This document shows, one piece after another, positions 7,457 to 31,388 of a stretch of 33,451 nucleotides of DNA. Made by a program: the position numbers and the translations under genes. The notes under the pieces were generated by a model. It was given only the letters and a program-made list of their open reading frames with translations. It did not search any database and had not been told where the DNA came from. The DNA lies in the NCBI GenBank assembly GCA_025362195.1, contig JANYHV010000236.1, positions 1-33,451 on the forward strand, in the 5' to 3' direction. Position 1 is the first letter of the stretch. Every line of letters starts with the position of its first letter. Source of the DNA: Fimbriiglobus sp. (GTDB lineage: Bacteria; Planctomycetota; Planctomycetia; Gemmatales; Gemmataceae).

Positions 7457-8872
7457 TCAGGACCCCGCCGGGGGGAAGTCGGCGCGGGTCGGCAGGCGGC
7501 CGAAGTCGGTCCGCGCCGGCCGCGGGGCTTGCACGGCCGCCTGTCGCGCGGCGCGGGCGACCCGCGCGATCGGGACTTGCCGGACCCCCGGCGGCCGCGA
7601 CACCTGGGCGTTGGCGATGGCCCAGATTTGCCCGCCCAGCAGCATCAAGAAGTACGGCAGTTCGAGGGTTTCGAGCGACAGGAAGATCGCCCCGAAGTAG
7701 AAGGTCACCAGCGAACAGAAGATGCCGCCGATGATGGCCACGGTGAGGTTGGCCTCGTCGTCCGTGCGGTGCCGCAACCGCCACCGCGCCCGCAGCAAGG
7801 CGACGAGGGTGAACCCGGCCAACAGAATGTACCAGGCCATGCCGATCCACCCGGTGTCCGCGGCGATCTGCAAGTAGATGTTGTGGATCGTCCGGCCGTC
7901 CATGTCCGCCCCGTAGGACAGCGTGAGCAGGTTCGAGCAGCGGACGCCCGCGCCGAACACGGGGAAGTCGTTGGCGATGCGGCGGGCGCAGTCCCAGCTC
8001 ACGTACCGGCTGTTGATACTGTCGTCCTCGCCGCCCTTCTGCGACGACAGGAAGCGGTCCTGAATCTCCTTGCCGGCGACGACCGGGACGGCGCACGCGG
8101 TGGCGACGATGCAGGCGATCAAGAAGACCCGGCGGCGCGAGAAGAAGATGTAGAAGACCCCGCCGACGATGGCCGACAGCATCGCCCCGCGCGAGTAACT
8201 GCTCATGATCGACTCGACGACGAACGGGATCGGGACCAGGAAGGCGAACCGGTACCACCGCTTGGTGAACTCGAACGCGAAGTAGCACAACGGGATGCCC
8301 ATCGCCAGCATCAGGGCCGCGCCGTTGTTGTCGAGGCCGGCGAACCCCTTCTTGACGAGCACGAGGTACCCGGTCGTCAGGTACAGGTGAACGATGTCAA
8401 TGGCGATGTACGCGACCGACAGGGCCATGACGAGGTACAGGACCTTGACCTGCCACATCATGCGGATGACCTGCGTGCCGAGCAGGTACATGATGAAGAT
8501 TTTCATGAAGTCTTCGTACACCGGGTACGCCGTGTACATGTCGTTGGCGAACAGGTAGCTCAGGGTCATCCACAGGGAGAACCCGCACATGACGCGGTGC
8601 GACCAGGTGAACGGCGGGTGGACGAACCGCTCCGGGTCGCGGGGCGTGCCGAACATGCCGAACACCCACGGCAGGTAACTGCCCAGCGCGGCCAGCGAGA
8701 TGTAGAACGCCCAACTCGCGTCGGGCATCGACGCGAGCTGCCACTTCCACAGGAACTGCGGGCGGAACACCGAGATCAGGACGTACACGGCGAACGGCAC
8801 GATCGGCCCGCGGACCAAGGCCCCGAGGCTGCCGCCGACCGTCACGAACACCAACAGCAGGAACTGGATCAC
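7457..8872 (-). CDS. O-antigen ligase / polymerase-like membrane protein, exosortase-associated
   Basis: 471 residues, with about ten hydrophobic segments through most of its length and a longer periplasmic loop holding the Wzy_C-type motif I-H-N-I-Y-L-Q and the preceding F-P-V-F-G-A-G-V. The N terminus (V-L-I-S-V-F-R-P-Q) resembles the putative O-glycosylation ligases that accompany exosortase systems. Such enzymes join undecaprenyl-linked glycans to one another or to protein outside the cytoplasmic membrane. The start GTG 8872 overlaps the preceding stop (GTGA, 8869-8872). The frame stays open far upstream, but that part is antisense or out-of-frame shadow of the glycosyltransferase and must not be included. 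The last 55 residues are a basic, proline-rich cytoplasmic tail. Confidence 0.85.
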   Translation of the reverse strand: MIQFLLLVFVTVGGSLGALVRGPIVPFAVYVLISVFRPQFLWKWQLASMPDASWAFYISLAALGSYLPWVFGMFGTPRDPERFVHPPFTWSHRVMCGFSLWMTLSYLFANDMYTAYPVYEDFMKIFIMYLLGTQVIRMMWQVKVLYLVMALSVAYIAIDIVHLYLTTGYLVLVKKGFAGLDNNGAALMLAMGIPLCYFAFEFTKRWYRFAFLVPIPFVVESIMSSYSRGAMLSAIVGGVFYIFFSRRRVFLIACIVATACAVPVVAGKEIQDRFLSSQKGGEDDSINSRYVSWDCARRIANDFPVFGAGVRCSNLLTLSYGADMDGRTIHNIYLQIAADTGWIGMAWYILLAGFTLVALLRARWRLRHRTDDEANLTVAIIGGIFCSLVTFYFGAIFLSLETLELPYFLMLLGGQIWAIANAQVSRPPGVRQVPIARVARAARQAAVQAPRPARTDFGRLPTRADFPPAGS

Positions 8873-10125
8873 CCGTTCGCCCCCCGGAGACTCGCCACCC
8901 CCGCGGCCGCGACCCGGGCCGCGGCGTCCCAGGTGTGGTGTTCGCGGACCCAGACCCGTGCCGCCTGCCCGAGGGCGACCCGCGACGCTTCGTTCGACCA
9001 CAACTCGGCCAGGGCGTCGGCCCACTCGGCCGGCCGGTCGGCGAAGCGGAGCGGGGGCGTGCCGTTCAGGCCGTGCGTCGTCCGCCGGGTCGCCACCACC
9101 GGCATGGCCATCGCCGCCGCTTCGAGCAGCTTGTTCTTGATGCCGCCACCGCTGACGAACGGCAGCACGACCGCGCCGCACTCGCGCACGGCCGGCCGGA
9201 TGTCGGGCAGGTCGCCGGTCAAGTGAATGCCGTCGCGGCCGGCGAACCGGGTGACGGCCGGGGTCGGTTGGAAGCCGTAAATGTTCAACCGGGCGGTCGG
9301 CACCTTGGCGCGAACCCCCGGCCAGACTTTGGTGACGAACCACTCGAGGGCCTGGATGTTCGGCCCGAAGTCGAGCCGGCCCCAAAAGACGCAACTGTTC
9401 GGCACGACCGGCACCGGCGGCTGGGCGGGCGCGTAGTGGTCGGCGTCCACGCCGTTGGGCAGCACGTCCGTCTGGCCCACGCCGGCGAACCAGCGGAAGG
9501 CCTTGGCGTCGGCCTTCGACACGACCCAGACGCGGTCGAGCATCGTTCGGTAAGCCCGCTCGTACAGCCCCTTGACGACCGCGTGCTTGACCTCGGCCCA
9601 CGTCGAGCGGTGCCGGAGCTTGACCATCGACAGGTGGTGCCAGACCCACTCGTCGGCGGCGTACCAGACCCGCTGCCGGCCCGCGACGGCCCCCAACAGC
9701 GGCAGCACGTTCAACCCCGACACGACGACGACTTCGGCGGCGCAGTCGGCGGCGGCCGCGGCGAACTGGCGGACGCGGTCCTCGGTCACGCCCCAGTAGT
9801 TCAGGAACTTGGCCTGCGACTTGGTCGTGAGCAGTGGGATCGTCCCCGTGGGCGGCACGGGCGGGTGGGCCTCGCCGAGCACGTACCGGTTCGCCAGCGG
9901 CAGGCCGGCGAGGGCGGCGTCCGGCGCGGGGTCGGCGGTCGCCACAGAGACCGTGTGCCCCTGCCGGGCGAGCGCCTGCATCAGGTAGAAGGTGTGAACG
10001 TCGTGCCCGCTCGCGCGCGGCCAGGCGAACCGCTCCTTGTAGAAGAGCCAGCGGCGCGGCCGGTCGCCGGCCGGGGGCGGCGCGGTCAACGGGAGTGCGG
10101 GGTTCGGCGCGGTCGCAACGGTCAT
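8869..10125 (-). CDS. Family 4 glycosyltransferase, PEP-CTERM/EpsH-cluster type
   Basis: 418 residues, GT-B fold. The N-terminal half has R-A-S-G-H-D-V-H-T-F-Y and the C-terminal half V-F-W-G-R-L-D-F, N-I-Y-G-F-Q and G-G-G-I-K-N-K-L-L-E-A, the nucleotide-sugar site of GT4 enzymes. The overall layout resembles sugar transferases found with exosortases, although here the first 25 residues form an extra alanine/proline-rich tail. It would act in the cytoplasm on a lipid-linked sugar. It is locked into the operon by ATGA at its start (overlap with the VanZ-like gene) and GTGA at its end (overlap with the ligase). Confidence 0.87.
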   Translation of the reverse strand: MTVATAPNPALPLTAPPPAGDRPRRWLFYKERFAWPRASGHDVHTFYLMQALARQGHTVSVATADPAPDAALAGLPLANRYVLGEAHPPVPPTGTIPLLTTKSQAKFLNYWGVTEDRVRQFAAAAADCAAEVVVVSGLNVLPLLGAVAGRQRVWYAADEWVWHHLSMVKLRHRSTWAEVKHAVVKGLYERAYRTMLDRVWVVSKADAKAFRWFAGVGQTDVLPNGVDADHYAPAQPPVPVVPNSCVFWGRLDFGPNIQALEWFVTKVWPGVRAKVPTARLNIYGFQPTPAVTRFAGRDGIHLTGDLPDIRPAVRECGAVVLPFVSGGGIKNKLLEAAAMAMPVVATRRTTHGLNGTPPLRFADRPAEWADALAELWSNEASRVALGQAARVWVREHHTWDAAARVAAAGVASLRGANG

Positions 10126-11075
10126 GAAATCGCCTCGGAGGTCGCCCGGCGGCCGGGTGCCGTATCTCTAGCACACCGGTGGCGGAAAAGCCGACACCGG
10201 CGCAGCCCCGGGACGGTCACCCGACCGGCGGCGACGGCCGCCGCGCCGATCAAAAGGTCCGTGGTACTGGGGTGCCGCGAAACGACCAGTTGCGCGGCCT
10301 CGGTGCCGCCGGCCAACACGACGCCGACGGCGAACGCCCCGAGGACGCCGCCGCGCGACGGGATCGCCCCGAGAAGCAGCCCGGCCGGCAGGAACAGCCC
10401 AACGAGGGCCAGCGCGGCCAGCAGCCAGTCGGGGCGCTTCGGGTCGGCCAGTTCGTCGAACGGCACCACAGTCACGCGGCCGTCGGCGACCCCGTCGCGG
10501 AGCAAGCGGTACAGGTCACCAGGGCTGGTGTCGATGTCCAGGGGCAGCATCTGGGCGAGCAGGACGACCACGCAATACGCCAGAAAGCGCTGCCCCGGTC
10601 GGCCGGCCAGCCGCGGGTGGCTCCAGGCCGCGCGAAGGTGCCGGGTAAAGTACGGGCCGGCAATCAACCAGCCGGCGAGGCCGAGCGCGGAGCCGATTGT
10701 TTGCGCGAGAATGTCGCTGCCCGAGCAGGTCCGGCCGGGGACGAACAGTTGGGCAAACTCGACGGCGGCGGCGAACGCCCCGCACGCCGGCAACAGCACC
10801 AGTGCCGTGAGCCAGGCGGCGACCGTCCCGCGGCGGTCGGTGCGGAGCGCGGCCAGCGTGCAGAAGCCGAGCGGGACGCCCAGCAGCACATTCGCAAGCC
10901 CGTCGGCCCGGGATTCGACGGCGACGCGGTTCGACAGCACCCAGAGGAAGGCGTTGACCGCTTCGGCCGGCGGCCGCGCGCGGAAGTCGAACGGCACGAG
11001 ACTGCCGTAGACGGTGAAGAGGGCGAACCCGCAGGCGAGCCAGGCGTACGCGCCGCGGCCGGGACTGGCGCTCAC
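10122..11075 (-). CDS. VanZ-like integral membrane protein with two VanZ signatures
   Basis: 317 residues, strongly hydrophobic. The VanZ-type signature occurs twice: Glu106, Gln109, Arg115 and Asp121 within E-F-A-Q-L-F-V-P-G-R, and again Glu259, Gln262, Arg267 and Asp273 within E-A-A-Q-L-V-V-S-R. This suggests tandem copies of the same membrane module; most VanZ-like proteins have one. VanZ is known from teicoplanin resistance, but VanZ-like proteins are also common in exopolysaccharide and exosortase clusters, where their role is unclear. The start is GTG 11075, overlapping the exosortase stop as GTGA. The longer open frame upstream is a shadow of the exosortase gene. Confidence 0.8.
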   Translation of the reverse strand: MSASPGRGAYAWLACGFALFTVYGSLVPFDFRARPPAEAVNAFLWVLSNRVAVESRADGLANVLLGVPLGFCTLAALRTDRRGTVAAWLTALVLLPACGAFAAAVEFAQLFVPGRTCSGSDILAQTIGSALGLAGWLIAGPYFTRHLRAAWSHPRLAGRPGQRFLAYCVVVLLAQMLPLDIDTSPGDLYRLLRDGVADGRVTVVPFDELADPKRPDWLLAALALVGLFLPAGLLLGAIPSRGGVLGAFAVGVVLAGGTEAAQLVVSRHPSTTDLLIGAAAVAAGRVTVPGLRRCRLFRHRCARDTAPGRRATSEAIS

Positions 11076-12154
11076 GAGTGCGTCCCCGCGTCGCCGCGCG
11101 GGTCCGGCCGCATCGGGTTCGGGCCGGCCCCGGGGCCGCCGGCCGTCAACGGTTTGAGCGGGTTGAACGGGCCGTCCCGGTTCGACGACCCGCGGGTCAC
11201 CATCCGCGGTTCCCGGCCGCTCAAGCCGAGCAGTTCGTTCGTCGAAACGGTCTCGACCGGTGAGGTCACCCAGTCCATGACCCGCAGTTCGAGCCACAAG
11301 ATGAACAGCGCGAGCGGCATCATCAGCCAGCCGGCGAGGTCGTGTACGATGAGGTCGCCGAGTTTGGTCCAGCCGGCGTAGTAGACCAGGCCGGTGACGA
11401 CGATGCGAATCATGTTGCACACCAGCGAGATCGGCAGCGCGCTGGCGAACAGGATGGCGCGGTCCACCGTCGGGCGGGACTTGTACAGGAAGGCGATGGC
11501 CGCCGACAGGGCGACGAAGGCGAGGATCATGCTCAGGCCCGAGCACGCCTGCGCGACGCCGAGCCGGGTGTCCCCCTCGGCGTGCGGGAGGACGATGATG
11601 TTCCCCTCCGCATAGGACGGCAGGCCGAGGGTCTGGAAGCCGAAGTTGCCCCACTTCACGGCGAACGACTGGAGCTTGGCCGTCACCGCCTGCTCGACCA
11701 TGTTCGGCAGCGGGAAGGCGAGGGGGAAGAACACGAGCGCCGGCCAGGCCCAGCGCAGCCCCTTCCAGCCTCCGCAGAACATGACCACGACCCCGGCGAA
11801 CGCCAGCATCAGCGCGAACGCTTGCAGCCACTCCTTGGCGAAATTGGTGCGGTCGGCCACGAAGTAGACGGCGGCGCTCAGCGCGAACGGCGGCAGTGCC
11901 CAGAGGTCGGGCCAGGCGATCCACTTGGGGAAGAACTCCCGCCGCGTGACGAGCAGGTAGGCGATGAACGGCACGATCAGCAGGCCGTGCGAGTAGTCGG
12001 CCTTGGTCGTCCAGAGTTGGACCAGTTCGCGGAGGACGCCGGAGAAGGCGAACAGCAACGCGGCGACCACCACGGCAAGGCTGATCTGCCACGAACGCTG
12101 GCGGACGACGGCCGCGGAGGGAGTGGCGGTCACGGTCGGATCCTCGGGCGGCAC
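11072..12154 (-). CDS. Exosortase/archaeosortase-family transpeptidase
   Basis: 360 residues with about eight membrane segments. The exosortase catalytic set is visible: Cys204 in A-C-S-G-L-S, Arg250 in N-M-I-R-I and His271 in H-D-L-A-G. The D-Y-S-H-G motif (53-57) and F-P-L-P (147-150) are also family marks. Exosortases cut PEP-CTERM signals at the periplasmic side of the membrane and pass the protein to a next step linked to polysaccharide export. A PEP-CTERM protein is encoded at 19726-20706. The tail after residue 297 is a hydrophilic, Pro/Gly-rich cytoplasmic extension not typical of short exosortases. The start GTG 12154 is uncertain; GTG 12133 is also possible. The exact subtype (Xrt letter) was not determined. 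Confidence 0.93.
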   Translation of the reverse strand: MPPEDPTVTATPSAAVVRQRSWQISLAVVVAALLFAFSGVLRELVQLWTTKADYSHGLLIVPFIAYLLVTRREFFPKWIAWPDLWALPPFALSAAVYFVADRTNFAKEWLQAFALMLAFAGVVVMFCGGWKGLRWAWPALVFFPLAFPLPNMVEQAVTAKLQSFAVKWGNFGFQTLGLPSYAEGNIIVLPHAEGDTRLGVAQACSGLSMILAFVALSAAIAFLYKSRPTVDRAILFASALPISLVCNMIRIVVTGLVYYAGWTKLGDLIVHDLAGWLMMPLALFILWLELRVMDWVTSPVETVSTNELLGLSGREPRMVTRGSSNRDGPFNPLKPLTAGGPGAGPNPMRPDPRGDAGTHS

Positions 12155-12309
12155 GCGCGGAGTCTGAGAGGTGGGATTGTAGTGCCGGTTCCGGCGGCCG
12201 GCCGGGCGACTCTTCGGAATACACCGGTCCGGCCGGGTTGTGCCGGTCGTACCGTCCGTTGTGTGCTAGGCTTCGGCACGTCCAGAGAACCGGCCCGAGG
12301 CGTCCGCTT

Positions 12310-13491
12310 GTGGTCAACCTGTTTGAACTCACCCCGTTCGCGTCGGCCTGCGGCCTGCGCTCGCCCATCGACATCCGCATCGTCCGGAACGACGGGGCGG
12401 TCCTGGCCGAGGGCCAACTCGACCTGCCGTGCGCGCTGGCCGGCCGCGACCCGGCGTGCGAAGTCACGCTCACGGACGCCGAGATCAGCCTGCGGCACGC
12501 CTGCCTGCAAGCCGTCGGCGGCCGCGTGCTCGTCGCCGACATCGGCTCGCGGACCGGCCTGCACCTGACCGAGCACGAACTGGCCGCCGGGCCGGACCGC
12601 CAGCCGTTCTTGTGGCTCACACCGACCGACCCGGTCGCCGTCGGGCCGTTCCGCATCACCTTGCGCAAGCCGCTGTTCGTGCGGCCGACCGTGCCCGAGA
12701 CCAGCCCGTTCCTGCCCGACCCGGCCGCGACCGACGCCCTGCCCCGCGTGGCCGTCCGCTTCCTGAACGGCAAGAGCGTCACCGGGCAGTGGGTCGTCAA
12801 CCGCCTGATCACGTTCGTCGGCCGCGCCCGGGACTGCAAAATCAGCCTCGCGGCGGACGACATCGACCCGTTCCATTGCTATTTCCTGCTCACACCCGAC
12901 GGCCTGTGGGTGGTCGATCTGCTGAGCCGGGGGGGCATCCGCGTCAACGGCGAGGCGACCCGGTACGCGCACTTGAAGACCGGCGACGAACTGCAAGTCG
13001 GCCGCTTCCGCCTGGGCTTCGAGTACCTCGACGAAATCGTCCCGGCCCGCACCCCCGAGCGCGCCGTGCCCAGGCCGCGGACGATGCCGAACCTGACGCC
13101 GCGGTCGTCGTTCACCCCGCCGCACGGCATCCAACTCCCGACAACGCCCGCGCCGGTCGCCGCTCCCGTGGTGACCGCGGCCCCGCGGGAACTCGCCCCG
13201 GCGGTGCAGGCGTTCGCGGCCGCGCAGGCGCAAATGATGGCGCAGTTCGAGGCGTCGATGATGGCGATGGTCCGCAAGGTCGGCGAGATGCACCGCGGGC
13301 AGTTGGGCGCGATGCAGGCCGAACTCGCGCGGATGGAGGAGCTGAACGCCGAGATGCTCCACTTGCAGGCGCGGGCGACGACCGCCGCGCCGGAAATCTG
13401 GGTCCACGACCGCATGGCCGCGCTCCACGTCGAGCGGCAGACCCTGTGGCACCGCCTGTTCGACATGATCGCCCCGCAGACCCTGGCGTGA
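12310..13491 (+). CDS. Protein with two FHA domains and a C-terminal helix
   Basis: 393 residues. FHA domain 1 (about 20-118) has G-R-D-P-A-C-E-V-T-L and I-S-L-R-H-A; FHA domain 2 (about 147-238) has V-G-R-A-R-D-C-K-I-S-L, F-H-C-Y and R-G-G-I-R-V-N-G. FHA domains bind phosphothreonine on partner proteins and in planctomycetes often work with Ser/Thr kinases; no kinase lies here. A Pro/Ala-rich linker follows, then a Met/Glu/Gln-rich helix (about 290-360) that may be a coiled coil. In domain 2 the conserved S-x-x-H is P-F-H, so phosphopeptide binding there is doubtful. The start GTG 12310 has CGAGG 9 bases upstream; a possible -10 (TAGGCT) lies at 12267-12272. It is transcribed divergently from the exosortase operon. 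Confidence 0.87.
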   Translation: MVNLFELTPFASACGLRSPIDIRIVRNDGAVLAEGQLDLPCALAGRDPACEVTLTDAEISLRHACLQAVGGRVLVADIGSRTGLHLTEHELAAGPDRQPFLWLTPTDPVAVGPFRITLRKPLFVRPTVPETSPFLPDPAATDALPRVAVRFLNGKSVTGQWVVNRLITFVGRARDCKISLAADDIDPFHCYFLLTPDGLWVVDLLSRGGIRVNGEATRYAHLKTGDELQVGRFRLGFEYLDEIVPARTPERAVPRPRTMPNLTPRSSFTPPHGIQLPTTPAPVAAPVVTAAPRELAPAVQAFAAAQAQMMAQFEASMMAMVRKVGEMHRGQLGAMQAELARMEELNAEMLHLQARATTAAPEIWVHDRMAALHVERQTLWHRLFDMIAPQTLA

Positions 13492-26324: not shown

Positions 26325-28145
26325 TCAGTGGGCGGCTTTGATTTCGGGGTGGTTGAGCAGGTACGCCCGGCGTTGGTCCGCGAACGCGCGCACGCTCAGC
26401 GCGGGGCCGCGGCCTCCGGGCGGGGCGGCCGCGACCGGCTCGTCGGCCGTCATCCGCCGGAAGTCGGCGAGCGAGTCGAGCTTGCGGGTGTCGGCTTCGA
26501 CCTCCTTGTCGATCAGCGCGCGGTACCGGGCGACGACCGGGCCGAGCGTCTTCCAGTCGAGCGACTCGTCCGCGATGGTCTTGACGTTGGCCAGGTACTT
26601 GGCGCGGAACGCTGTGACCGCGAGCACCTTGCTGCGGAGCGGCTTGCGCGCGTCGTCGAGCGCGACCAGCGGGTCGAGTTCGATGCCGTTCCCGCCGCGC
26701 GGCCCGGCCATCCCGCCGGGACCACCCGGCCCGCCCGGGCGACCGCCCGGCCCAACGGGGCCACCGGTACCGCCGCCGGGTCCGCTGAACCGCTTGAGGT
26801 CGGCCTTCTGCGGGGCGGTCAGGAGCGCGTCGAGTTTGCCATCGACTTCCTTCTGGAGGTCGGCGAGTTGCTTCTTCTGCTCGTCGGTCATCTTGAGCAC
26901 GTCTTGCACGAACGAGGGGAGAACTTCGCCCGGGCGGGGCATCCGCATCCCGAAGCCGCCGGGGCCGCCGGGGCCGCCGCCGACGGGCTGGAAGGCCTCG
27001 TTCATGTCGTGCGGGACGGCGTGGAACTTCCCCTTCGGGTCGAGGTACAGGGTGTAGTCGCTGGCCCGCACCCAGTACCCGTCGTTGTTGATCAGGGCCA
27101 CGTCGAGGGCCAGAAACCAGAGCAGGCCGTCCACGTCGAGGATCGGCTTCAGGGCCGCTTCGAGCTTGTCCGCCGGAGTCTGGTCGAGGACTTTGCACAG
27201 GTGAATGAGGGCCTGCCACGGCTTTTCGCCGTCCGCCGACTTGATCGTGTACCGCCGCTTGTAGTCCTCGGGCTTGTCCCCGAGGTAGTCGAGCCCGCCG
27301 CCGCCGCCGGGGCTGCCCCGGACCTTCCAGCGGGTGCCCTTGTCGGTCTGGTAGTTCTCGGCGAGGAACTGCTTGTCGAACTGCTGGACGTTCGGGTAGA
27401 CGCCCCAACTCTCGCCGTTGACGACGACCTTGACGAAGTTCGCCTTCGGCGTCGGCGTGTGCCGGCGGGCGAGTTCGGAATAGAGAACGGTGCTCAGGAA
27501 CGACGGGTCGTCGTGCGAGTTGAGCAGGTTCAGCGTCTTGTACCCGCCCAGCCGCTGCTTCGGGTCGGCGAAGTCCATCGACAGGTTGAAGGACCGCTTC
27601 GACCCGGCCGGGACCATGCCGTAAGACGACATGCCGCGGAAGTGAACGCCGACGTTCGGGTAGACCTTGCCGTCCACGGTGAGGGTCGCCGGCACCTCGA
27701 CGTCGGTGCCGTGGAAGTCCTGGACCTCCGCCTCCCAGTCCTTGCCCTCGAAGTCTAGGAACAGGGTGCGCAGCACGGCCGGGTCGTACAGCCCGGCCCC
27801 CGGGTACGTTTGGACGTCCACCGGGGAGACCTTCGGCCCGGGCCGTGGGGCCTCCTTGACGCGCCCCCCCGGGCCGAAGCCGCCGGGGCCGAACCCGCCC
27901 GGGCCGCGCTGGCCGGCGTCCTTTTTGAGCGAGTCGCGGGCCGCCTGCCGTTCGACCGCGTTCAGCCAGCCGTCGCCGTTCTTGTCGAACTGCGCTAACA
28001 ACTTGCGCGGGGCTTGCTCCCACGGCGGCATGAACCCGCCCGGCCCGCCGGGACCACCCCCCGGCGGCTGGGCCGATCCGCTCGCGGCCGCCGCCACGAG
28101 GAGGAAGCCGCCGAGACCCACCGCCACCACGGACCGCCTAATCAT
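26325..28145 (-). CDS. Exported CotH-family kinase-like protein with EF-hand
   Basis: 606 residues with a signal peptide (about 1-25). An EF-hand loop D-K-N-G-D-G-W (54-60) comes first, then the CotH domain: F-R-G-M-S-S-Y, K-R-S-F-N-L-S-M-D-F and Y-K-T-L-N-L-L-N-S-H-D-D-P-S-F-L, and the later H-A-V-P-H-D-M-N-E-A-F with its acidic metal-binding residues. CotH proteins of Bacillus are atypical protein kinases. Gly/Pro-rich stretches (about 27-40, 85-95, 390-405 and 458-490) divide the chain, and a segment with M-T-D-E-Q-K-K-Q-L looks like an LTXXQ-type helix. Bacterial secreted CotH proteins are often tied to surface structures, but its substrate is unknown. It lies 174 bases downstream of the CRTAC1-type gene on the same strand. 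Confidence 0.9.
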   Translation of the reverse strand: MIRRSVVAVGLGGFLLVAAAASGSAQPPGGGPGGPGGFMPPWEQAPRKLLAQFDKNGDGWLNAVERQAARDSLKKDAGQRGPGGFGPGGFGPGGRVKEAPRPGPKVSPVDVQTYPGAGLYDPAVLRTLFLDFEGKDWEAEVQDFHGTDVEVPATLTVDGKVYPNVGVHFRGMSSYGMVPAGSKRSFNLSMDFADPKQRLGGYKTLNLLNSHDDPSFLSTVLYSELARRHTPTPKANFVKVVVNGESWGVYPNVQQFDKQFLAENYQTDKGTRWKVRGSPGGGGGLDYLGDKPEDYKRRYTIKSADGEKPWQALIHLCKVLDQTPADKLEAALKPILDVDGLLWFLALDVALINNDGYWVRASDYTLYLDPKGKFHAVPHDMNEAFQPVGGGPGGPGGFGMRMPRPGEVLPSFVQDVLKMTDEQKKQLADLQKEVDGKLDALLTAPQKADLKRFSGPGGGTGGPVGPGGRPGGPGGPGGMAGPRGGNGIELDPLVALDDARKPLRSKVLAVTAFRAKYLANVKTIADESLDWKTLGPVVARYRALIDKEVEADTRKLDSLADFRRMTADEPVAAAPPGGRGPALSVRAFADQRRAYLLNHPEIKAAH

Positions 28146-28319: not shown

Positions 28320-31300
28320 TCACGGCTTGATCGTCTGGCCCGGGGTGACGGTGTCGATCGAGTCGGGACCGTCCCGGGATTCGTCGATGATGACGTGCCG
28401 GTCCGCGGCGATACCGGTCAGCACTTGCACCCGCCCGGACGGCCAGCGGACCGTCAACGTGTCCACCTTCGCGTCCCCGGCGAGGCCGAAATGGACCTGA
28501 CTGGGGGCCTGCGAAAAGTACCCGCCGGCCGGGAAGAGTTCGCGGACGATCTTCCGCCCGTTGACCTCGGCGGTGAGCCGCGCGCCGATACCGCGGCGGT
28601 TGCTCTTTTCGCCGCGGAGGGAGACGGTCAGGTGGTGGGCGACCGGCAGCCGGTTTTCGAACAGCAACAGCGGCCCGCCCCCGGCCTGGCGGACGATCAA
28701 ATCGGGCATCCCGGTGTTGCGGAAGTCCGCGGCGACGACGGACCGGCCGTCGCCGTCGCTGTCGGTGCCGCTGAGGTGGCTCGCGTCGAGGAACTCCCGA
28801 CCGCCCGCATTGAAGTAGAGCCGGTTCCGCTCGAACGCGCTGAGGTTGTGGCCTTCCTTGATGATCTTCCACGGGTTGCCGACCCAGAACTCGCCGAGCT
28901 TGGGGTCGAGCGAGCCGGGCAGTTTGATTTCGCAGTTCCGGTTGCACGGCTGTGACACGACAGCCAACCAGACACAGTTTCAGCCGTCGGGTTTGTCGCG
29001 GTCGCGGCTGAGGTACCCGGCGGTGGCGTACACGTCCAGGAACCCGTCCCCGTTCAGGTCGGCCAGGGCGGCCCCGTACGCCCACCCGACGGACGCGAGG
29101 TGCTTGGCCGCGCCCGCCTGCTCGAACTTGAGATCGCCCTTGTTGAGGTGCAGTTGACTGCCGGCCACAAGCCGCTTGAGCTTTTCCATCACTTTGGGCG
29201 GGTACGCGTCCGGCTTCAAGTTGCCGATCACCCGGGTGCCGGCCTTGGAGTACATGTTCGCCGAGTAGATGTCGATCCGGCCGTCGTTGTCGATGTCGCC
29301 GACCGCCAGGCCCATCGTCCCGAAGTCGGACGGCCGGTCGGCGAGCGGGTGCGGTTTGAACGTGCCGTCCCGGTTGTTCACGAGCAGCACGCCGTCGCCG
29401 AACTCGTTCGGCACGTACAGGTCGGGCCAGCCGTCGTCGTCCGCGTCCAGCCAGGCGGCGGTGAACGACGACCGGTAGTCGCCCCGGGTGCCCGACTTCT
29501 TGGTCGCGTCTTCGAATTTCCAGTCGCCCAGATTCCGCAGGAGCAGGTTCCCGTGCGCGCTGTTGCTCCGGCCTTCGAGCCACGACATGTTCCCGGCGGC
29601 CCCGGCGCGGGTGAGGTACAGGTCGAGTCGCCCGTCGCGGTCGTAGTCGGCGACGAGGATGCCCGTCAGGTTCTCCGGCAGGGTCGCCGAACAGCGGTCG
29701 GTGGCGTCGGCGAACTTCGCACCGCCCTCGTTCCGGTACACCCGGCTCTCCAGGATGAGGTCGTCCCAGCCGTCACCGTCCAGATCGACCCACGCCGCGG
29801 CACTGATGCCGGCCGTCTTCCGCGGCAGTCCCGTCCGTTCGGTGACGTCGGTAAACTTCCCGCCGGGGCCGCCGCGGTACAGGGCGTTCCCGGTCACGTC
29901 TGTGACCAGCACGTCGAGGTAGCCGTCCCGGTCGAAGTCGGTGACGTACACCCCGCCGGTCGTCGGCACCCACTTCTTATTCGTCCAATTGTCGTGCAGC
30001 CCAGTGTTCAGGCCGCGTGCCGCCGCCGCCTCGGCGAACAGCGGCCGCGGGGATCGGGCCACGGCCAGGAGCCGGACGTGGGCGGCGCGGAGCCACCCGC
30101 CGGCCGCGAGGGCCGGTTCGGCGGGGGCCGGTACTTCAAACGCGAGGGTCGCGGTCACCTCGGCCGGCCCGCCCGCGGCCGTCGTGCCGTGCATCCGCAG
30201 TTGCGCCTTGCCCGCCCAAACGCCTTCGACGCGGGACGGGTCTTTCGGCTGCAAGGTGGCGACGACCAGTTTCACCTTCGGGGCGGCCCCGAACACCCGG
30301 CGCAGTTCGACCGCCCGTTGCACGAACTGTGCGGCCGTCACCGGGAGGGCCGCGGCCCCCGACTCCTGGAGCCGGTCCACGTCCGCGTACCCCGCCGACT
30401 TCGTTACCGTCGGGGCACCCGGCTCGGACCCGGCGAACTCCGGGGCCAGGAACCGGGCGAGTTCGGTCGCGTCGCCCCGGGCCACCGCCGCGGCGAAGAG
30501 CTCGAACCCGTACTTGTTCAGGACGTTGCCCCGGTGCTCGATCTCCCACAGCCGCTTCTGCTCCGCGTCCGGGAGTTCCATCGACTCGAATTCGTCGTTC
30601 CGGCTCGGGCCGGTCCGGTCCGCCCCGGTCCGCGCGAGGGCCTCGTCGGCCGCGACTCGGACGGCGGCGTTGTGGTCGCGCAGTAGCGCCCGGAGGAGCG
30701 GGGCGGCGTCCCGGGCGTGAACCCCGGCCAGCCCCAGCCCGCCCGCCGCGATCGCGCGAGTCGCGTCCGGGGCGGGGCGGTCGAGAACCCCGGACAGGGT
30801 CGGGACGGCGGCGTTCGTTCCGGCGGCCGCGGTCCCGAGCGCCCGCAGCGCGACCTGACGGATCGTCATCGGGAACACGTCCAGGTCGGTGTCGTTGTCG
30901 TCGTCGGCCGCCGCCTGAATCAGTTCGGGGACGGCCGGGCGGGCGTCCTCTTTGAGCCGGATCAGGGCCAGGGTGGCGTTCATCCGGACGAGCGGGTTCG
31001 GGTCGAGGACCGCGGCCGCCAGGTCGCCGACGACCGCCCGCGACGCCGGGGCCAGCTTACTCAGGGCCGCCGCTGCCGCCGCCCGCACGTCCGGGTCGGC
31101 GTCCCGGCGCATTGCCTCGGCGAGCCGCGGCAGGAACCCGGTAGGGTCCGTGCCGAGTTGGCCCAGGCCCCACGCGGCCGCGGTCCGCACTTCGGGGTTC
31201 GGGTCCGACAGCGCTCGGACCAACTGCCGCTCGGACCGCCCACTGCCGGCCACCGCTTGGTACACCACCGACAGGTGGACCGGACTTCCGGGCACGGCCA

Positions 31301-31388
31301 AGGCCGCGACCGACACGATTGCGATTCCGAGGCCGATCCACCGGCCGCGGTGTCGCGCCCGCGGCGGGGGAGGAGGACCGAGTGACAT
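28320..31388 (-). CDS. CRTAC1-type HEAT/FG-GAP/ASPIC protein; in-frame TGA, candidate selenoprotein
   Basis: 1022 residues if the TGA at 28980-28982 is read as selenocysteine 803. A membrane anchor or signal (16-34) is followed by HEAT-like repeats (about 55-260), a middle domain, then FG-GAP/VCBS repeats with D-x-D-x-D-G loops (484-785, for example D-F-D-R-D-G and D-L-N-G-D-G). After the TGA the same frame runs on through N-C-V-W, Cys815/Cys819, another D-S-D-G-D-G and the ASPIC/UnbV domain (about 930-995), which normally ends this family. The downstream part has no good start codon or ribosome site, so it is not a separate gene. A SECIS-like hairpin follows the TGA. Start ATG 31388 is chosen because upstream TTG codons give no signal. 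Alternatives are a true stop, a pseudogene or a sequencing error. Confidence 0.8.
28940..28969 (-). promoter_or_regulatory. SECIS-like hairpin downstream of the in-frame TGA
   Basis: On the minus strand, 10 bases after the TGA, GGUU pairs with AACC and GGCUGU pairs with ACAGCC; the loop CGUGUC begins 21 bases after the TGA. A 4-base bulge lies on the 3' side. Bacterial SECIS hairpins lie directly downstream of UGA with a small apical loop containing GU, about 16-37 bases away; this one fits both. No folding energy or covariance was computed. Confidence 0.5.

Follow-up and report, generated by a model that had tools for sequence, protein, structure and literature searches.

An in-frame UGA at codon 803 of a minus-strand gene in a 33,451-nucleotide stretch of Fimbriiglobus sp. 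DNA (contig JANYHV010000236.1; the whole stretch is called the window here) is very probably read as selenocysteine (Sec), and the gene would then make one selenoprotein. This reading is supported because the UGA is conserved, the downstream frame is intact, a cysteine counterpart exists, selenocysteine machinery is present and a hairpin follows the codon, and sequence evidence by itself could hardly make it stronger. The initial annotation had singled out one odd gene as a candidate selenoprotein; the selenoprotein reading was sustained, and the gene proved to be one branch of a phylum-wide family.

The gene and its predicted product

In the window sequence, positions 31388 to 28320 of the minus strand form a single frame with an ATG start, one internal TGA and a terminal TGA (Table 1). 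The internal TGA lies where the initial annotation had placed it, with the frame kept on both sides, and the translation confirmed the residues that had been reported around it. Sec is followed by Asn-804 and Cys-805 (U-x-C, here U-N-C) and then by Trp-807, giving the motif P-D-G-U-x-C-x-W, with further cysteines at positions 815 and 819. The UnbV_ASPIC domain was likewise found downstream of the TGA, as had been claimed.

Table 1. Features of the window and their positions
Feature	Position	Strand	Remarks
Whole coding frame	28320..31388	-	1022 residues, Sec at 803; stop TGA 28320-28322
N-terminal hydrophobic segment, aa 1-40	31269..31388	-	likely export signal, judged from the translation
HEAT repeats, approximately aa 51-247	30648..31238	-	5' of the TGA; limits approximate; HEAT_2 76.5 bits, three stretches
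Sec-TGA codon, residue 803	28980..28982	-	TGA column conserved in S1; mostly Cys in C2
Sec-bearing loop, aa 799-852 (model residues 535-588)	28833..28994	-	predicted structure; pLDDT mostly near or below 50
bSECIS-like hairpin GGCUGU-CGUGUC-ACAGCC	28948..28965	-	apical loop 28954-28959; -7.8 kcal/mol in the window
UnbV_ASPIC domain, aa 933-998	28395..28592	-	3' of the TGA; Pfam 71.0 bits, cut-off 23.4
CotH kinase protein	26328..28145	-	just downstream of the selenoprotein gene
Two large adjacent frames	7460..12863	-	O-antigen ligase (Wzy_C) and VanZ-like domains

Pfam placed both FG-GAP repeats (FG-GAP_3, 140.7 bits) and UnbV_ASPIC above their curated cut-offs, which is the domain content of the CRTAC1 family, and the Pfam scan found no thioredoxin-fold domain with a CxxC in the window protein. 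NCBIfam release 20.0 gave three weak matches far below cut-off, of which the HEAT-type ones reached residue 247. A structure model of residues 265–1022 had a mean pLDDT of 85, and its best solved match among those listed was CRTAC1 (cartilage acidic protein 1; 9etn), both in the fold comparison (E 9.8e-23; rmsd 4.0 across 609 columns; TM 0.71 when scaled to target length) and in the profile search (E 1.6e-10); integrins and other propeller proteins were far behind. The model places Sec in a low-confidence loop between propeller strands. The window protein shares with CRTAC1 the propeller fold, FG-GAP and UnbV_ASPIC; unlike CRTAC1, it has an in-frame Sec-UGA in this loop and HEAT repeats at its N terminus. 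The product would be one chain of about 1022 residues, probably exported, in which a CRTAC1-like FG-GAP β-propeller is combined with UnbV_ASPIC and N-terminal HEAT repeats.

No conserved gene neighbourhood was found: in a comparison of 22 stretches, no cluster of neighbouring frames other than the gene itself was shared by more than four. In two loci, L061 and L062, the gene follows one for a TPR protein. The CotH kinase protein encoded just downstream in the window was not recurrent among these stretches. Elsewhere in the window, two large adjacent frames carry O-antigen ligase and VanZ-like domains.

The TGA column in the S1, C2 and S3 branches

Close homologues (S1 branch) were collected in several searches. 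In a set of 59 genomes, made up of the organism's own and its relatives, all eight close homologues (E below 1e-100; six genomes, window gene included) had exactly one TGA, at the same column, within the motif P-D-G-U-[NS]-C-[VL]-W. Searches of 397 genomes of the class and of 392 genomes of the phylum, two sets that overlap, reported one TGA in all 51 best matches (E 4e-27 or better) and in all 18 best matches (E 8e-29 or better), respectively, and TAA or TAG at the Sec column in no close match. A pattern scan of 84,980 species genomes returned 13 loci, some of them the same genes as in the genome searches, and TGA was present in all; twelve are from MAGs of planctomycetes, and the thirteenth (L063, DLRJ01000056.1) is from a record that bears the name Dehalococcoidia. 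The S1 gene of this record nests among planctomycete S1 genes, and the G+C content of the locus is 40%, where the window and six further loci have 58–69%; transfer or mis-binning may account for this.

The S1 set of 64 distinct genes was picked by its U-containing motif, so TGA in 64/64 is true by construction; when genes were instead counted by model score, without that motif, the column was TGA in 63/63 fetched genes scoring at least 90 bits on the S1 model. Cys at +2 was found in 63 of the 64 genes and Trp at +4 in every one, and the frame continued for 202–249 residues past the Sec codon in all 63 genes uncut by a contig or locus end. An alignment of 14 proteins also showed a conserved coding frame on both sides of the UGA. 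Because 63 S1 genes end in a mixture of stop codons (TGA 28, TAA 18, TAG 17), an all-TGA column is unlikely for a real stop, the chance being about 3e-23 for 64 genes with kinship ignored. A change of genetic code, with UGA generally sense, was rejected on the same terminal TGAs and that of the window gene; the initial annotation had already taken TGA to be a normal stop elsewhere. No Cys form was seen inside the S1 branch itself. In one of the 64 (L113, G195:C59), an S1 copy that adjoins an S3 gene, the reading frame is interrupted shortly ahead of the Sec motif, by decay or assembly error.

Two related branches, C2 and S3, carry other forms of the motif. In a tree of 140 rows from which the Sec residue was left out, the S1 genes grouped together with SH-aLRT support of 99, a single misaligned row falling among them, and the C2 genes did so with support of 100. 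The C2 motif resembles K-D-Y-C-T-x-[FY]-W, and its proteins read through as one chain; at the TGA column, 17 of 18 C2 genes have Cys and one has Ala, after three Cys rows had been dropped as misaligned (L021, a remote paralogue with a long branch; the second match in L088; an extra row of L209). Seven of the C2 Cys genes come from four genomes (G233, G243, G308 and G354) with no selB or tRNA-Sec over cut-off, and C2 also occurs in selB-positive genomes, e.g. G168, G236 and G307. The comparison of homologues proposed in the initial annotation thus returned TGA throughout S1 and Cys in the same column of the related C2.

In S3, 39 genes have the TGA within D-L-U-S-[FL]-[FW]-W-R or a similar motif (L110, L111, L112, L113, L100 and L144–L165), and ten TGA-bearing paralogues were listed for a single genome (G389). 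S1 and S3 genes adjoin in L112 and L113, and C2 and S3 genes in L100. The C-terminal part of S3 proteins is mostly longer, and in the three scanned with Pfam it matched AhpC-TSA/Redoxin, with a CxxC; two of the three also had TPR repeats. We take this domain to be of the TlpA/ResA type, thiol-disulfide oxidoreductases to which it is similar. Unlike in those proteins, the S3 domain is fused behind a Sec-bearing propeller, and the window protein is without it.

Seventeen S3-type relatives without Sec (L201–L215) have Glu, Asp, Ala or Gln at the column if they are tailed and Asn, His or Arg if they are short; the 20 non-Sec regions had been chosen for having no reported stop inside, which inflates the non-Sec share, and their tails were not known at that choice. 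The Sec/Cys exchange anticipated in the initial annotation was therefore borne out by C2 and is incomplete as a description of the column; as judged from these alignments, exchange with Cys is not the sole route of Sec loss in the family.

The tails of these proteins provide a clue to function. A CxxC stands at one aligned place in 38/38 Sec-bearing S3 proteins with a tail, a count from which L165, whose frame ends 114 residues past Sec, was left out. The aligned segment has neither Cys in 8/8 tailed non-Sec relatives (Glu, Asp, Ala or Gln at the Sec column); a Pfam redoxin domain was found in none of the seven of these that were scanned, the segment being called thioredoxin-like from the alignment alone. 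Nine further non-Sec relatives (Asn, His or Arg) are without the whole tail. The best tree of 50 rows implies three paired changes, of which only one falls on branches with good support, and with so few events a sign test of the co-loss cannot reach significance. The association of Sec with CxxC in these sequences is clean and rests on few events.

From the paired absence of Sec and CxxC in S3 we infer that the family acts in extracytoplasmic selenol-thiol redox chemistry, a role that we regard as somewhat favoured. Sec and the Cys two residues on would form a redox pair (selenol/selenenylsulfide) outside the cytoplasm. A partner with a TlpA-type thioredoxin fold may re-reduce this pair; in the sister branch S3 that partner would be fused to the same chain. 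In the window's own branch, the U-x-C motif and analogy with S3 suggest the same role. Alternatively, the inserted Sec could bind a metal or have a structural role in the exported propeller, with no thiol redox chemistry. FG-GAP propellers bind calcium, and Glu, Asp, Asn, His and Gln, all of which can occupy the column in S3-type relatives, are possible metal ligands. The replacements nevertheless go with a missing CxxC (8/8 tailed) or a missing tail (9/9 short), a pairing which suggests that a redox function was lost, and the near-invariant Cys at +2 in S1 also speaks against this alternative; we consider a metal or structural role possible but doubtful.

Probable decoding of the UGA codon

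The stem of the window hairpin begins 14 nt after the TGA and its apical loop 20 nt after it; the hairpin reported in the initial annotation is present, with its loop one nucleotide closer than the 21 bases given there. Among S1 genes the DNA of GGCUGU-CGUGUC-ACAGCC hardly varies, and the same 20-nt spacing is found in 57 of 64. Published rules for bSECIS elements ask for a loop of 3–9 nt, a stem of 4–16 bp, G in the first two loop bases, a spacing of 16–37 nt and an energy of −7.5 or lower (PMC13188914), and the window hairpin conforms to them at −7.8 kcal/mol. Genes were screened against these rules using uninterrupted stems only, with synonymous recodings as the control, first on 53 S1, 10 S3 and 12 C2 genes and again on 64, 39 and 18. 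In the larger sets, conforming hairpins were found in 58/64 S1 genes (14% of synonymous recodings) and 26/39 S3 genes (7.5%), as compared with 0/18 C2 genes (2%) and 4/17 non-Sec S3-type genes (11%). Gene by gene, 27/64 S1 and 21/39 S3 hairpins beat 95% of their own recodings.

Codon choice and pairing in the hairpin were examined in 53 of the 64 S1 genes. Relative to usage in the same genes, the hairpin is biased toward GCT for Ala (48/52; gene usage 0.15), TCA for Ser (35/38; 0.10) and GTG for Val (49/53; 0.30). The inner helix was paired in 97.5% of cells, with few changes, and compensatory changes were seen at two inner pairs, in two sequences each; shuffled controls match or exceed the covariation score or the paired percentage in 39 to 43 of 500 cases, so that covariation alone is weak. 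The whole 57 nt after the TGA were not unusually stable (S1 mean z −0.50, with 6/53 below −2; S3 mean z 0.08), and folding of this stretch against synonymous recodings failed to tell Sec from Cys genes, whereas the bSECIS rules succeeded. Of the two checks on the hairpin that the initial annotation had proposed, folding gave a stem-loop that conforms to the bSECIS rules at a fixed position, and covariation is present but small.

The GTG within the hairpin, at +8, could also be a start codon, in which case the TGA would be a stop followed by a re-start and two polypeptides would be joined into one propeller. Its conservation in 49/53 S1 genes and an SD-like stretch before it in 12/53 are in keeping with such a re-start. 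The other 41, the window gene included, are without an SD-like stretch, TAA or TAG in place of TGA was reported for none of the close matches, the Cys forms read as one chain, and the genes are associated with selB (below), all of which makes two separate polypeptides very improbable.

The window genome, a draft of 509 contigs that is 87% complete, encodes all four components that the initial annotation had named as a check on its reading: profile searches detected selB (333.9 bits), selA (559 bits) and selD (359.2 bits), and a tRNA-SeC with anticodon tca was found. Across the class set, selB was over cut-off in 195/397 genomes, in a survey that scored three candidates per genome and can therefore miss selB; 11 genomes were redone with all candidates. 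As counted from listings of that set, selB was present in 29/35 genomes having S1 with TGA and in 166/362 others (p 2.6e-5), and in 22/22 genomes having S3 with TGA (p 8.5e-8). Among S1 genomes at least 90% complete, selB was found in 27/29.

Six of the 35 S1 genomes were without a complete selB. Four of these (G036, G324, G271 and G340) are only 59–83% complete; a tRNA-SeC was found in G271 and none was confirmed in the other three, the best tRNA matches in G036 and G324 being tRNA-Ser. In G366 (95% complete), pieces of selB lie on separate contigs, and no tRNA-Sec was over cut-off. The sixth, G351 (99% complete), has an S1 gene and a tRNA-SeC with no selB over cut-off, through an assembly gap or a divergent SelB.

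The UGA might be read through as an amino acid other than Sec, either Trp or, by near-cognate read-through or a suppressor, Cys. UGA read-through as Trp is known in other settings, and Cys is what C2 has at this column. Trp occupies the column in none of 141 alignment rows, TGA terminates 28 of the 63 S1 genes, and the SECIS-like hairpin, the selB link and the tRNA-SeC all point to Sec, so that insertion of another residue appears highly unlikely. A lone TGA in one draft genome of this completeness and fragmentation could be a sequencing error, a young pseudogene or the real stop of a split or decaying gene, and these readings can be set aside as extremely improbable given TGA in 63/63 high-scoring S1 genes, a long downstream frame in all 63 uncut ones, and conserved motif and hairpin codons. 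With the UGA taken as Sec, codon 803 would be decoded by SelB and tRNA-Sec, directed by the hairpin that starts 14 nt downstream.

Relation to catalogued selenoproteins and implications

A review of May 2026 lists 119 prokaryotic selenoprotein families in its Table 1, including families credited to Haft and Tolstoy 2025 (PMC13188914). That table holds no FG-GAP, UnbV_ASPIC, CRTAC1 or propeller family, and the strings 'planctomyc', 'propeller' and 'UnbV' are absent from the text of the review. The available text of the deep-Sep paper (PMC12013277) contains none of planctomyc, CRTAC1, FG-GAP or ASPIC. Sec genes were reported in 2016 in planctomycetes P1 and P2, Gemmata obscuriglobus and Isosphaera pallida; the selenoproteins named in the available text of that report are other ones (PMC4807772). 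The listings of our literature searches showed no selenoprotein of CRTAC1, UnbV or FG-GAP type, and one may still have been described elsewhere. The view of the initial annotation that an exported HEAT/FG-GAP selenoprotein would be new is supported to the extent of these searches and of the 119-family table.

The proteins share with catalogued selenoproteins a UGA with a downstream bSECIS, the SelB/tRNA-Sec machinery and a Cys counterpart, and the UxC motif also occurs in a thioredoxin-like family (Sec.2) and a Cu/Zn efflux transporter (PMC13188914). From their sequences they apparently constitute a new selenoprotein family, large and uncatalogued, with a fold not among the listed selenoproteins. 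The wider picture that we lean toward is of a large, uncatalogued superfamily of exported, Sec-bearing CRTAC1-type propellers in Planctomycetota, in which S1 would use U-x-C and S3 its own CxxC, co-lost with Sec, as parts of an extracytoplasmic selenol-thiol relay.

If the Sec reading is true, it adds a fold class, the FG-GAP propeller with UnbV_ASPIC, to the known selenoproteins. Standard gene callers would cut members of the family at the UGA, so that many genes of planctomycetes may stand in annotations as two separate pieces. With no Cys form seen within S1, such genes may escape finders that depend on homologues with Cys, a dependence that the deep-Sep authors state as a limit of their own method (PMC12013277). 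The family would also be a phylum-wide reason for planctomycetes to have retained the Sec machinery. That Sec and CxxC go missing together offers a direct, testable handle on what bacterial proteins of CRTAC1/ASPIC type do, a group for which we know of no role in bacteria.
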